This document shows, piece after piece, positions 3,397 to 64,000 of a stretch of 64,000 nucleotides of DNA. The notes below the pieces were generated by a model. It did not search any database, was not told the DNA's origin, and saw only the letters and a list, made by a program, of their open reading frames with translations. A program made the translations under genes and the position numbers. Source of the DNA: Peltaster fructicola (taxonomy: Eukaryota > Ascomycota > Dothideomycetes); NCBI GenBank assembly GCA_001592805.2, contig CP051142.1, positions 3,286,001 through 3,350,000 on the forward strand, in the 5' to 3' direction. The stretch's first letter is position 1, and each line of letters starts with the position of its first letter.

Positions 3397-3786
3397 ATGG
3401 CGGAGCCTACCGTATCGCACGACCCGCTCGAGCACATATTACAGCACGATGACACCGACTCGCTACCTTCGGCATCCGCATCAACCACTTCTTCATCGTC
3501 CAGTGACGACTTTGAGGAATCCGATGCAGAAAGAGAATGGCGAGAGAGCTTACAACAGTTGGAGTTGCTGCTGACTATGGTACTCGTACCATATCTTGGA
3601 AAATACTTCGGTCGAAGATGCGCATACTGGGGTGAGTAGAGTGAGGACAATGGGGGCTATGAGCATAGCTGACACGTAATAGCATGGGCCAGATACATGG
3701 AATGGCAATATCCTGTCAGTATCGAGTTTAGCAGCAAGAGAACATTCAAGGTCACTGGTGCGATTGAAGCCGCTGCTTCTCTATGA
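3397..3786 (+). CDS. Mim2-like mitochondrial outer-membrane insertion factor
   Basis: Two exons (3397-3631, 3683-3786; 51-nt intron GTGAGT...AATAG) give 112 residues. The N-terminal half is acidic and Ser-rich. A single hydrophobic segment follows (LELLLTMVLVPYLGKYFGRR), then a compact aromatic stretch (AYWAWARYMEWQYPV) and an Ala-rich tail. I recall this arrangement from fungal proteins annotated as Mim2, which with Mim1 inserts alpha-helical proteins into the mitochondrial outer membrane. The splice was chosen because it restores the YWAWARYMEW motif. Yeast Mim2 is shorter and diverges strongly, so the family call is moderate; a small single-pass membrane protein is certain. Confidence 0.7.
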
Positions 3787-4076
3787 ACAACGTAGAAGTG
3801 CGAAGAGCAGACGTGTCCTTAGCTGGCAAGAATATGGCAGCCTAGTAAAACTGATACTACAGCAAGGCACAGTGGCATCGAGGCAGAGGACACTTGTTAC
3901 GAAGTGCATCGAATATTTGCAGCCTGACGCTGTTGGCGGACAGCTGTCCAGTCTAACAGCATCCGAGCATTGAGTCATCGATGGTCGGATAGTCACAATG
4001 TGAGCTATCGACATTTACACGATACAAGAATGGACGGACCTGTTTTCAAGGCTGCCATGTCGCCATATCAGCTACA

Positions 4077-4888
4077 ATGCACCTCGAGATCTATCGAATG
4101 GCCCTGGCCATCATCACCGACTATTACAACTGCCTCCTCGCCATGTTTTGGCCGTTGACCTCACCTCGAACAGCACAGAAACAGAGACACCATCGACAAC
4201 TCAGCTTCTTCTTTCTAGAGCTCGATCGTCCACTTGCTAAGAATGTTGTCGCTGGCAACAACAAAGCAGCTTTATTCCATCTGCTGGCTTGCATGAGTAA
4301 CGGACTATACGAGGATGGTCAAATCTTCTGGGGAGCCTGCGGACTGGACAAGACAATTCTGGTTGCGTTCCGTAAGCGTCACGGCGCCACGCTCGGTGTT
4401 GCTGCTAACAATTGAAAGAACACTCTGCTTCAGGCGATACAACAGGCAGTGTCAATGATGGAGTCCCCGAGCTTGTCACTCGCACGATGGGCGATGCTGT
4501 GGTCTCTCGGCCAGCAGTTTGCTCTGCTCCTTTCAAGGCAGATGTCATTCACCGAGACACTTTGACCATCAAGAATGCCACTCTTCATCTTCTCATGTCG
4601 TTCACCCTTCGCAGATACGCGCAAATGCCTGGAGCTTGGGACGCTCCTTGTGAAGCAGTCCGCCTGCCAATACTTGACAAGGAGATGATACTAGAAAGAT
4701 ATCGCGTTCGACCAGGGTCATTGAGAGCACTTGAGGAGTGTGTGCCCCGATCTGCGGAGGTATCAGATCCTGTGCCCACCATATCGAAGCAGGAGGAGAA
4801 GGACAGCTCGTTGACAAGCAGTGGTCCCCAAGAACCTCATCTCGACGATCTCGACTGGGTCCTCATCGATGACAAAGCTATTATATAG
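4077..4888 (+). CDS. Hypothetical protein, two exons
   Basis: Proposed exons 4077-4371 and 4418-4888 with a 46-nt intron (donor GTAAGC, acceptor AAAG) give about 254 residues. I do not recognise it. Visible features are a hydrophobic N-terminal stretch with ITDYYNCLLAMFWPL, a Cys/Gly patch around FWGACGLDK, a segment ILDKEMILERYRVRPGSL, and an acidic C-terminus ending DDLDWVLIDDKAII. The frame is long and has non-random composition, which favours a real gene. The true start could lie in an upstream exon. No function is proposed. Confidence 0.5.
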
Positions 4889-59923: not shown

Positions 59924-61257
59924 CTATGCTGTCTCCATGCTGTCAAGGATAGCCCTTGTGAACTCGTGTGTTGTGGCCGAACCTCCCATATCCCTCGTCC
60001 TGACCTTGCCCTGTCCAATGACATCGTAAACCGCCTTGCTGATTCTGTTGGCATGCTCATCGAGACCGAGGTGTCGTAGCATCATGCTGCCAGACAGCAG
60101 AAGAGCTGTAGGGTTTGCTTGATCCTTGCCCTTGATATCAAGACCGACGTGTCGGCATCCTGGCTCAAAGACAGCTACCTCGCGGCCCATATTGCATCCA
60201 GGGACAATTCCGGGCCCTCCTACAAGGCCAGCACCGATGTTGGACAGGATACCTCCGTACAGGTTGGGCATAACCATCACGTCGAATTGCTGTGGTCGGC
60301 TGACGCACTGCATGCTAGCGTTATCGACGATCATGTCGTTGGTCTCGATGGTTGGGTACTCCTCGCCGACCTTCTTGACAGTGTTTCGGAAGAGTCCATC
60401 GGCCAGCTTCATGATGTTGGCCTTGTGGATGCAGGTAACCTTGCGCCGGTTGTTGGCCAGGGCGAAAGAGAAGGCGAATTTGGCAATACGCTCTGACTTG
60501 GCACGGGTGATGATCTTGAGAGACTCAACGACACCGCTGACTGACTGATGCTCGAGACCCGAGTACTCGCCCTCGGTGTTCTCACGGATGATACAGAGGT
60601 CGACATTCTTGTGTCGTGTCTCGTATCCTGGGATGTTCTTGATGAGGACAATCGAGGCATAGATGTCGAGCTCCTGTCGCAGAGCAACGTTGAATGACTG
60701 ATGTCCAGAGCGCTCGACTGGGGTGTGCAAGATACCCTTGAGTCCGACCTTGTTGCGCTTCAATGAAGCAATTGACTCGCGGAAGAGCTCTTCGGTGTGC
60801 TTGTCACCGTCCTCCATTCCGGAGACATCGACCTGCTCCCACTCGACTGGAACGTTGTCTGCCTTGAACACAGTCTTCACTGACTCCGAGACCTCTGCTC
60901 CAATACCATCACCTGTTGTTGTAGTTTAGCCGCTGTTGTGCTTTGCTTTTTACCACTCTGCGGCGCGTACCTGGGATGAGAGTGACAGTGTATTTACCAC
61001 CAAACTTGGTTGGCTTGAAGATGTCGGCGCTGACGGTCGCGTACGCTGTTCGTGGTATTAGCGAGACTGTATGTGGTACGATCATTCGTTGCTGAATCTG
61101 ATGTGACGTACATCGTGCAGCTATCGAAGGGGTGGTTGTGCATTGAGCACGTTGCGCGGCGCGCAGCAGCGTCTAACCGGTTGAATTAGTATGGTATCTC
61201 GACAGTAACTCCGGATAGGATGCTCACAGAAGCTGCTCCACTGCTTTTGCTCAACAT
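59924..61257 (-). CDS. idh1: NAD+-dependent isocitrate dehydrogenase subunit 1, mitochondrial
   Basis: Four exons (61257-61228, 61172-61112, 61045-60971, 60912-59924), introns 55, 66 and 58 nt, 384 residues, the usual length. It is the regulatory subunit of the TCA-cycle enzyme converting isocitrate to 2-oxoglutarate. The three small 5' exons assemble a mitochondrial presequence (MLSKSSGAASTLLRAAQRAQ, then ...IAARSYATVSAD) and then IFKPTKFGGKYTVTLIPGDG. Introns 1 and 2 have CTAAT branch sites. Conserved words follow: IIRENTEGEYSGLEHQSV, VTCIHKANIMKLADGLFRN, DNASMQCVSRPQQFDVMVMP, NLYGGILSNIGAGLVGGPGI and NPTALLLSGSMMLRHL. An internal ATG at 61085 would give a shorter protein without a presequence and was rejected. 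Confidence 0.95.
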
Positions 61258-62297
61258 GTTGGTGTGTTGTCGGGTAGATGGAGGACTTCCAACAAAGAAG
61301 AAAGCTTCAGTATCCGGCCAGAGCTTCGCCGTTGCAAGCGTCCGCGGGAAAGATCCGCTGCAAAAGCATTGGTCCTTGTCGTCACCTCTTATCTTCCACA
61401 ACATCAGCATCCGATATATATTCATGCACCTTGCTCCATCTCGAGGAGTTCTCTACTGACATGAGAAGTCAGTATTCCGTCGGTGTATAACCTCATCCTC
61501 ATGCTTTCCTGAGCACAGCAGCGCTCCGGTGACTGAGTCCGTGAGCGTCGACGACAGCATCAGGTTGGGCACATCTTCTAGCACGCCGAAGATACATCGT
61601 TCCAAAGCTTCAACGCACGAGCGACGCATGATCTATGCTCATTTGGTCCCGACCTTCTTGCTGTCATGCAGACAGCGCCCAGCTCTTTGACCATTTCACA
61701 GCCTTCATTTAGAACAAGCGATGCGACCTCTATTGACACCAAGATCGGGTATGGTGTGCGAGTATGGCCATCAATGCATCTTTTGTTCAACAATGATACA
61801 CGAGCACCCTCGGACAACACAAGGTCTTAATAGTTGCGGTCATTGGTGCAGTTCTTTGCGCAATGAGAACGAACTGTGAGGCTGCCATCGACCATCGCAG
61901 AGCCACGTCTGGCACCAGTGCAACAGTTTGACGAGATTTCTGTGTCCACAGCGCTACGTTCCACGTTGGCTTCATGGCCATGGATCGATGGTTAATCTCA
62001 TACCATAAGGCAGGTCACGATGCGTTCTGTTGTTGTGTAGCCACCCGCTCTCTTGTGTCTCTCAATGGCAGCCATTGGCATTGACATGCTTTATCCCTGT
62101 CCCTATTGACACACTGTTTAGGCGATATGGTCTTTGGAGCAGCTACTGTCTATAAGAGCTTCTATCTCAACCGTTTGCGGTCTCGTCCCCGTCTCCTACA
62201 CTCATTCAATACTCATAAGGACCACCTACTTGCAATTTCCCATTTCCCTAAGTTTCTCATAACTTGAAACTTCAAGGTATATCATCAGATCTACACC
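61258..62297. other. Divergent region between idh1 and the pheromone precursor
   Basis: About 1 kb. The last 140 bases are CT-rich and hold the TATA box and leader of the pheromone gene. No other gene recognised. Confidence 0.4.
62151..62157 (+). promoter_or_regulatory. TATA box of the pheromone-precursor gene
   Basis: TATAAGA at 141-147 bases before the start codon, followed by a C/T-rich leader. The position is plausible for a strongly expressed fungal gene. Confidence 0.5.
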
Positions 62298-63092
62298 ATG
62301 AAGGTCGCAACCGTCGTCGCCATCATGGCGTTCACTGCAGCCCAAGCTGCTGCCGTCGCCGAGGCTGATCCACGCTGGAAGATCTGGAGCTCATGCGGTC
62401 CACCAGGAATCACTTGTGCCAAGACCAAGCGTGCAGCTCTTGCTGTCGCTGAAGCCCTTGCAGAGTTTGAGCCCCATCGTGCACACTCTTCCACTTGTAA
62501 CTTCCCAGGCGCCAAATGTCACAACGCCCGTCGCTCTATCGAGCAGCTCGGCGCTGCCACCGAGAGCACTCTCGATAATGTGCTTGCCCTCGACAAGGAC
62601 GACGATGCTATTGCATACAAGGACAAGCTCCTCCACGCTGGGTTCCCAAGCACCAAGCGTACTGCTAAGCGTGATGCTGAGATCAACGCACGTTGGAAGA
62701 TCTGGAGCTCCTGTGGCCCACCAGGAATCACCTGCGCCAAGGCTAAGCGTGGTATTGATCTCATCAAGGAGGACTTCCCAGACATTCACAAGGAAGAGTG
62801 CTTCGCCAAAGGCGGCGAGTGTCACGCCGTCTTGAAGGCTCGTGCTGCTTTCGATGCAGCCGTTAAGCGTGAGGAAGGTGCGGACATCTCATCATGTGGA
62901 CAGCCAGGCTTCACTTGCGCCCAGGACGTCTACGACTATGCCGCTGCTAAGCTCAAGCGTGACCCAGCAGCTGACAAGGCTGATGAGGAGTGTAATGGTC
63001 CAGAAGGCGACTGCACTAAGGCTCAGACATACTTCGATGAGCTCGATGCCGCTCTTACAAAGGCCCAAGAGGATGTTCTCAAGGACAACTAA
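62298..63092 (+). CDS. ppg1: Alpha-type mating pheromone precursor (ccg-4/ppg1-like), multi-unit
   Basis: Intronless, 264 residues. A signal peptide (1-20, MKVATVVAIMAFTAAQAAAV) is followed by AEADP and the candidate peptide RWKIWSSCGPPGITCAK (26-42), ending at K-T-K-R. An identical copy at 132-148 follows KRDAEINA. Four further CX6C units are at 67-74 (CNFPGAKC), 168-175 (CFAKGGEC), 200-207 (CGQPGFTC) and 232-239 (CNGPEGDC). Kex2-type sites are at 44-45, 120-121, 124-125, 150-151, 190-191, 220-221, with RR at 78-79. Sordariomycete alpha-pheromones also have a CX6C core with a G-Q-P/S before the second Cys, and Neurospora ccg-4 has the same signal-spacer-peptide-KR plan. X-Ala/X-Pro pairs before the copies suit Ste13-like trimming. 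It could instead be another kexin-processed repeat peptide. Confidence 0.8.
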   Translation: MKVATVVAIMAFTAAQAAAVAEADPRWKIWSSCGPPGITCAKTKRAALAVAEALAEFEPHRAHSSTCNFPGAKCHNARRSIEQLGAATESTLDNVLALDKDDDAIAYKDKLLHAGFPSTKRTAKRDAEINARWKIWSSCGPPGITCAKAKRGIDLIKEDFPDIHKEECFAKGGECHAVLKARAAFDAAVKREEGADISSCGQPGFTCAQDVYDYAAAKLKRDPAADKADEECNGPEGDCTKAQTYFDELDAALTKAQEDVLKDN

Positions 63093-63552: not shown

Positions 63553-64000
63553 TCAGATGAGGGCAGCCCCCTTGAACATACCCTCTCTGACTTCTTTGAC
63601 GATATCCTTTCGATCGTGCCGGCCGACCAGGACAATGCCGCGACCTCTTCGACCCATGCGTCCCACACGACCCAGTCGATGAATGAAGTCGATCGAAGTA
63701 TGCGGCACATCGAATAATATGACATGCTTGACAGGTGTAGTGTCGATGCCACGAGAAGCAATGTCAGTCGTGACCAAGACACGAGTCTGAGCAAGCTTGC
63801 GCGTAGGTGTTGATATGTCAGTGAGCTCGCTAGGAGCAATCGCCGTGGTAGGAGGACTTTCTTTGCTAGGCATGGCGACACCAGTAAAAGCGGCGAGCAC
63901 GTCCTCGTTCTGACGCTGATCGCTGTCGCGTGAGAAGCCATACGCATCGATGCCCTTCTGCTGAAGATATGCTGTGAGCGTGGCGGCAGTCTCCCTTTCA
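63553..64000 (-). CDS. mrh4: Mrh4-like mitochondrial DEAD-box RNA helicase, C-terminal part
   Basis: The gene runs off the right edge; only the last 148 codons are present. The frame is open from 64000 to the stop at 63553. Visible are helicase domain 2 motifs: ETAATLTAYLQQKGIDAYGF (start of the domain), a low-conservation insert, TRVLVTTDIASRGIDTTPVK (motif V), and HRLGRVGRMGRRGRGIVLVG (motif VI, with the Mrh4-typical second GRRGRG). The end DRKDIVKEVREGMFKGAALI is characteristic of Mrh4, which helps assemble the mitochondrial large ribosomal subunit. Confidence 0.88.
   Translation of the reverse strand, partial: ERETAATLTAYLQQKGIDAYGFSRDSDQRQNEDVLAAFTGVAMPSKESPPTTAIAPSELTDISTPTRKLAQTRVLVTTDIASRGIDTTPVKHVILFDVPHTSIDFIHRLGRVGRMGRRGRGIVLVGRHDRKDIVKEVREGMFKGAALI

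Follow-up and report, generated by a model that had tools for sequence, protein, structure and literature searches.

A probable alpha-type pheromone precursor gene of Peltaster fructicola and a second gene carrying almost the same core peptide

The open reading frame at 62298–63092 (plus strand) of the 64,000-nucleotide stretch of genome analysed here (the window, C4:3286001–3350000) is, on the evidence as a whole, very probably a canonical alpha-type mating-pheromone precursor of Peltaster fructicola. We base this on features that are directly observed: the anatomy of the protein, its membership of a family, the receptor and protease-family genes present in the genome and the divergence of its two core copies by synonymous changes only. 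Judged by its sequence, the gene is a genuine but ordinary new member of the ccg-4/ppg1 type. Two-cysteine alpha pheromones were reported in 2019 from 13 Dothideomycete species (PMC6339444, excerpt), and the window gene alone is therefore less surprising than first thought. The unusual part is a companion gene on C3, AMS68_004488, and not the window gene.

The coding sequence is a single intact, intron-free exon of 264 codons followed by TAA, whose coordinates and translation were re-checked; both its relatives and the profile matches described below support it. The start codon lies in the context CACCATG, and ~140 bases 5′ of it, at 62151–62158, is TATAAGAG, which may be its TATA element. On one side lies a gene of the isocitrate/isopropylmalate dehydrogenase type (59924–60880, minus strand) and on the other, convergent with the pheromone gene, a DEAD-box helicase gene (63553–63999, minus strand) that runs on past the window end to L014 8445. 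A keyword search of three papers found no synteny of these isocitrate dehydrogenase and DEAD-box helicase neighbours with other alpha loci.

Residues 1 to ~20 (62298–62357, plus strand; the end is approximate) form a probable signal peptide, the N-terminus being hydrophobic, as it is in the relatives (best 12-residue Kyte–Doolittle mean 2.3, a measure of hydropathy only). All 12 cysteines of the protein are paired as CX6C, in six units starting at residues 33, 67, 139, 168, 200 and 232, just as an earlier note on this DNA had described them. When the residues were shuffled 100,000 times, the maximum was four such pairs, reached in nine of the shuffles. The earlier note also placed the units between Kex2-type sites and this stands in part: dibasic sites follow units 1 to 5 but there is none after unit 6, and it is the signal peptide, not a Kex2 site, that precedes unit 1. 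The dibasic sites are at residues 44, 78 (RR), 120, 124, 150, 190 and 220. On the DNA (all plus strand) these are a Kex2-type KR after unit 1 (62427–62432), the RR after unit 2 (62529–62534), two KR sites before unit 3 that read KRTAKR and are followed by a Ste13-type DA (62655–62672), and single KR sites after unit 3 (62745–62750), unit 4 (62865–62870) and unit 5 (62955–62960).

The intact core peptide is found in units 1 and 3. Copy 1, RWKIWSSCGPPGITCAK (62373–62423, plus strand), has a Ste13-type EA-DP in front of it, and copy 2 (62691–62741, plus strand) consists of the identical 17 residues. The two differ at six DNA positions and all six differences are third-position and synonymous; comparison of the codons thus bears out the claim that the two copies are protein-identical and separated by six silent changes. 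Six random substitutions made in copy 1 were all silent in 4e-5 of trials when substitutions were uniform, and in 1.6e-4 of trials when five transitions and one transversion were used. The cores are 88% identical as DNA, compared with 22–47% (ungapped) for the four 51-base blocks flanking them. The core loop, CGPPGITC, has a PG turn at loop positions 3–4, and alpha-pheromone cores are described as having two cysteines with a PG or GQ turn (PMC10569646, excerpt). With its 17 residues the unit exceeds the 9–14 quoted for alpha pheromones (PMC10569646 and PMC6265332, excerpts), which tells against the pheromone reading. KR is found one residue past each core, as CAK-T-KR in copy 1 and CAK-A-KR in copy 2. 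On the N-terminal side the Ste13-type dipeptide DP abuts copy 1 and NA abuts copy 2, but in the latter EI sits between DA and NA.

A protein search at E ≤ 0.01 returned 16 other proteins: fifteen on the same scaffold, including proteins of Rachicladosporium, Neophaeotheca and Hortaea, and the product of the C3 gene of this genome (P0013). The window protein and the fifteen scaffold relatives were aligned (alignment A1, 16 rows); P0013, whose scaffold could not be aligned with theirs, was omitted, so that the alignment is missing the only homologue without the scaffold loops. A profile search with A1, in which scoring was limited to the 7997 candidates with most words in common, gave at least 56 proteins at E ≤ 0.01. 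Five of the 56 (P0027, P0037, P0048, P0050 and P0052) bear a pheromone or ccg-4 name. The E-values were 4.2e-29 for a Fusarium pheromone precursor 1, 1.5e-17 and 1.6e-13 for Sporothrix pheromone proteins, 1.0e-15 for a Madurella ccg-4 and 3.5e-72 for a Meristemomyces protein that is called a clock-controlled pheromone in one source.

To control for an effect of composition, a rebuilt profile was scored against nine proteins, each in its real order, reversed and shuffled. Among these were the four Sordariomycete precursors that carry a name, which gave 69.0–120.1 bits, compared with at most 7.3 bits for residue shuffles (200 each), at most 10.8 for the reversed sequences and at most 36.5 for shuffles that kept the CX6C blocks (200 each). 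Four unnamed or uncharacterised proteins gave 82.6–196.3 bits against block-shuffle maxima of 25.5–51.1, and P0013 gave 47.3 bits against a maximum of 38.9. Since the block shuffles keep some score, part of it comes from the loops; most of it needs the order of the scaffold, except for P0013. The controlled profile homology, together with the fifteen CX6C-repeat relatives, supports the earlier identification of the gene as a ccg-4/ppg1-type alpha precursor. Homologues without KR-flanked repeats, or a loop unit not conserved in relatives, had been named beforehand as observations that would count against it, and both points came out in its favour: in the units of 17 proteins the repeats are followed by basic sites, and C-G-x-P-G-x-T-C is kept in the closest relatives P0002, P0003 and P0005.

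The window protein had no Pfam match above the cut-off, and a given family matched three of the 16 aligned proteins at most; the weak matches seen (conotoxin, halocidin, gallidermin and others) were taken to reflect cysteines or composition. The AlphaFold model of the window protein has a mean pLDDT of 72.8, a pTM of 0.70 and eleven helices, with residues 1–32, including the start of core 1, at pLDDT < 50; we draw no conclusion from it. Foldseek gave no match in the PDB at E ≤ 0.001 (best 0.35).

A protein that is cysteine-rich, repeated and probably secreted, from a fungus living on plant surfaces, might instead be an effector or an antimicrobial repeat protein with no role in mating, and pheromone genes can themselves act outside mating (PMC10057649, excerpt). 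The homology to pheromone precursors, which survives the profile controls, and the Kex2/Ste13 layout make this very improbable. We also give very little credence to a RiPP-type, KEX2-processed repeat protein (ustiloxin/dikaritin-like), the peptide of which would be cyclised by UstYa-type enzymes to give a metabolite. Kex2-flanked repeats are common to both classes (PMC7329392, excerpt), but Tyr is absent from the core, some of the family carry pheromone names, and both precursors, at C4:3.35 Mb and C3:1.57 Mb, are far from the only two UstYa (DUF3328) loci found in the genome, C1:1.69 Mb and C3:2.94 Mb. A neighbouring DUF3328 gene is missing at 98.6% of 216 putative fungal pheromone genes, according to the same excerpt.

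Comparison with the Sordariomycete ccg-4/ppg1 proteins (Fusarium albosuccineum P0037, Sporothrix P0048 and P0052, Madurella P0050) shows what the window gene shares with them and where it differs. They likewise have a hydrophobic N-terminus, two-cysteine repeats with a loop G, and KR sites, and the Madurella and Sporothrix precursors have scaffold elements in common with the window protein, namely a KRAAxA spacer and a C-terminal C-x-A-P-x-G-x-C loop. Their cores, however, are of the WCVWPGQPCW or QKYCPLKGQSCW types, whereas that of the window is RWKIWSSCGPPGITCA; the tryptophans of the window core precede the loop while those of the Sordariomycete cores stand around it. The peptide is unlike the Sordariomycete form, as had been claimed. 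Madurella cores are also mostly CX7C rather than CX6C, and P0037, which is partial, is without the C-terminal loop. The alpha pheromones of non-Pleosporalean Dothideomycetes are of the same class, with two cysteines and Kex2-processed repeats (PMC6339444, excerpt), a comparison made at the level of the class. Relatives P0002–P0012 and P0014–P0017 have the same scaffold with the same two scaffold loops, and their core loops are mostly C-G-x-P-G-x-x-C; the N-terminus of the core is lineage-specific (RWRYPW, WNYIPW, KIKSRYGL, RGGQIGF). Most of the tabulated relatives have more intact core copies than the window protein.

The alignment largely answers the question, left open earlier, of whether the four other units are degenerate copies or separate peptides: two are decayed cores and two are conserved loops of the scaffold, not copies of the core. 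Unit 2 (CNFPGAKC, 62496–62519, plus strand) and unit 5 (CGQPGFTC, 62895–62918, plus strand), which is without the N-terminal tryptophans, are best read as decayed core copies because P0002, the closest relative, has full cores at the aligned positions. That protein has four near-identical cores, RWRY[Q/P/A]WSSCGAPGITC; in P0003 unit 2 is degenerate as well and unit 5 is intact. Unit 4 (CFAKGGEC, 62799–62822, plus strand) and the C-terminal unit 6 (CNGPEGDC, 62991–63014, plus strand) are, as judged from the 16 aligned proteins, conserved loops of the propeptide scaffold. Both cysteines and one glycine of each are invariant in 16/16, with the unit-6 loop of P0017 two residues shorter. These two units are unlike the core of their own protein, yet alike between species whose cores differ, and similar loops are found further afield, CVAEGGSC (unit 4) in Madurella ccg-4 and CNAPDGAC and CYAPGGAC (unit 6) in the Madurella and Sporothrix precursors, respectively. 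The scaffold-loop pattern is present in 31 of the 57 family proteins; the 26 from which it is absent include P0013, the partial Fusarium P0037 and near misses such as P0025 and P0027. The spacer opened by the KR after unit 1, KRAALAVAEALAE, is similarly widespread: K44, R45 and A47 are invariant in 16/16 rows of A1 and a loose pattern for it matches 53/57 proteins, the match in P0026 and P0027 being to a Ste13-type run and not to the spacer.

The layout suggests how the pheromone would be made. The precursor would enter the secretory pathway, where a kexin would cleave the KR and RR sites, Kex1-type trimming would take basic residues off the C-terminus and X-A/X-P pairs would be removed from the N-terminus by a dipeptidyl peptidase of the Ste13 type. 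Two peptide copies close to RWKIWSSCGPPGITCA(K) would be released, probably with a disulphide-closed CX6C loop and PG turn, and would be recognised by the receptor, Ste2, on cells of the opposite mating type. An X-A/X-P dipeptide is found 5–14 residues upstream of 69 of the 79 CG..G..C units in the 16 aligned proteins, a count made with a loose pattern and no chance control in linkers that are A/P-rich. The exact ends of the peptide are uncertain since EI could stop Ste13: trimming may halt there before copy 2, and the N-termini of the two copies may then differ. The copies would also differ at the C-terminal end, one finishing in CAKT and the other in CAKA once Kex1 had trimmed them.

Components of this pathway are present in the genome (18,987,130 bases in five contigs were searched). 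A kexin P domain and a DPPIV-family domain were each found at a single locus, the latter match being insufficient by itself to name the Ste13 enzyme. STE2 gives a PF02116 match of 196.2 bits with one intron-like break, and STE3 gives 187 and 88.9 bits over two stretches. We infer that the STE2 product is the cognate receptor of the window peptide.

The strain is probably MAT1-2, as assigned by eye and from context. There are eleven HMG-box matches in the genome. The one at C3:2331673, in a gene at C3:2331649–2332455, was kept as the probable MAT1-2 locus because of its neighbours, Exo_endo_phos (APN2-like) and ANAPC5 genes, genes of the kind that flank a MAT locus (APN2, APC5). A split match on C1 (Nhp6-like, by eye) and one on C4 were set aside as candidates for MAT1-2-1. 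The others were judged from their translations; fungal HMG proteins at C2 and C5 have boxes similar to that of the C3:2331673 candidate and are possible alternatives to it. No MATalpha box was found above the cut-off in the genome; a single sub-threshold match (20 bits) was rejected because its 540-residue frame is an M1-type aminopeptidase (ERAP1_C 299.5 bits, Peptidase_M1 142 bits). Alpha pheromone is expected to be low in the MAT1-2 type, a point against the pheromone reading; the window gene would presumably be under mating-type control. The two papers on the P. fructicola genome never use the words mating, pheromone or sexual in their main texts, and neither the peptide strings nor AMS68_004488 appear in any paper of the literature searched.

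The second peptide gene was located by a genome search with P0013 at C3:1570235–1571183 (L013 ~3734–4684, minus strand), and when spliced it gives the AMS68_004488 protein letter for letter. Across the genome the loop pattern has five matches, of which the window gene holds three and the C3 gene two; the reversed pattern has none. The C3 gene also has six CX6C units. Units 3–6 are RWKP units with the sequence RWKPWSSCGPPGITCA, except that in unit 5 one P has become R. Three of the four RWKP units are identical to the window core at 15/16 residues (P for I) and the fourth also has R for P. The introns are 46, 47 and 46 bases long, each in phase 1 within the second-cysteine codon of units 1–3; the median intron in P. 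fructicola is 50 bp (PMC7181583, excerpt). There is no KR beside the C3 cores and the linkers are acidic. Three of the cores (L013 ~3870–4113, minus strand) come directly after S/T-[IV]-EGR, that is, after a single arginine with no X-A/X-P dipeptide.

Outside the peptide we found no relationship between the two proteins. Unmasked, the C3 protein matches the window protein with E 5e-18 over stretches that include the cores. With the CX6C units masked, BLASTP gives no match of the C3 protein to the window protein, P0002, P0003 or P0006 at E ≤ 10, whereas P0002 and P0003 keep their matches to the window protein after masking (1.5e-41 and 4e-38; the mask letters inflate the printed identities). 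No homologue of the C3 scaffold was found: the database search with P0013, which reaches only relatives with exact shared words and similar length, returned only itself, P0003 (6.2e-16) and the window protein (E ≤ 0.1, 2350 candidates), and neither of the latter two matches it after masking. The resemblance of W..W..C in the C3 protein to thrombospondin was discounted, since the only match was to TSP1_spondin with an E of 2.4, far below the cut-off.

For the six cores, two in the window gene and four in the C3 gene, per-site synonymous divergence exceeds nonsynonymous in 15/15 pairs (pS 0.36–0.83, pN 0–0.20). In raw counts synonymous differences are more numerous in 11 of the pairs, tied in one and fewer than nonsynonymous in three; the raw nonsynonymous counts are inflated because AGC/TCN serine swaps pass via other residues and the I/P change takes two bases. 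Between C3 units 4 and 5 the linker has pS 0.24 and pN 0.09 over 72 aligned sites, and the cores of these two units have pS 0.64 and pN 0.03. The numbers are small and the pairs non-independent, but they are suggestive of constraint on the cores at both loci. The codons of the core's serine pair are AGC-TCN in both window copies and in unit 3 of the C3 gene and TCN-AGC in C3 units 4–6, the peptide being unchanged there. The window and C3 cores are nearer each other than to those of P0002 and P0003, a closeness that fits either late capture of the peptide or its parallel retention under one receptor.

How the two genes are related can be read in more than one way. The window gene could be a decaying pheromone gene in a genome-reduced fungus, its role taken over by the C3 gene: two of the four homologous core positions (units 2 and 5) are degenerate where P0002 keeps all four, and the C3 gene exists with three exact copies of its own core. 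We consider this unlikely, since the window frame and scaffold loops are intact, the two cores that remain differ only by six silent changes in their DNA, and the genome has both STE2 and STE3. A tentative reading, which we regard as possible but rather less than even in its chances, is that the one fungus encodes the same alpha pheromone in two precursors that are non-homologous outside the peptide. The window gene would then be the ancestral Kex2/Ste13 type, and the C3 gene a lineage-specific precursor built of exon-sized units that had captured or re-evolved the peptide. The C3 peptide would be freed by a non-dibasic cut, at the single R before the core, or kept unreleased as a display or decoy, and selection by a single Ste2 receptor would hold both peptides nearly identical. 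The literature searched yielded no account of a single species having two alpha precursors with unrelated scaffolds, which is a weak negative. A duplicated alpha-pheromone gene is described in Berkeleyomyces (PMC13037118, excerpt). Alpha precursors that have no recognisable Kex sites are described in Erysiphaceae, and one of the Leotiomycetes seems to depend more on Ste13 (both PMC10569646, excerpt).

The window gene gives a sooty-blotch fungus of the apple surface a defined candidate for its mating pheromone and, with STE2 located, the pheromone–receptor pair is directly testable in yeast. The division into core, decayed core and scaffold loop helps in reading the alpha precursors of this lineage, in which a scaffold loop might be taken for one more peptide. 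At the second locus one can test how a peptide signal may persist through the replacement of its precursor, and whether dibasic Kex2 processing is dispensable.
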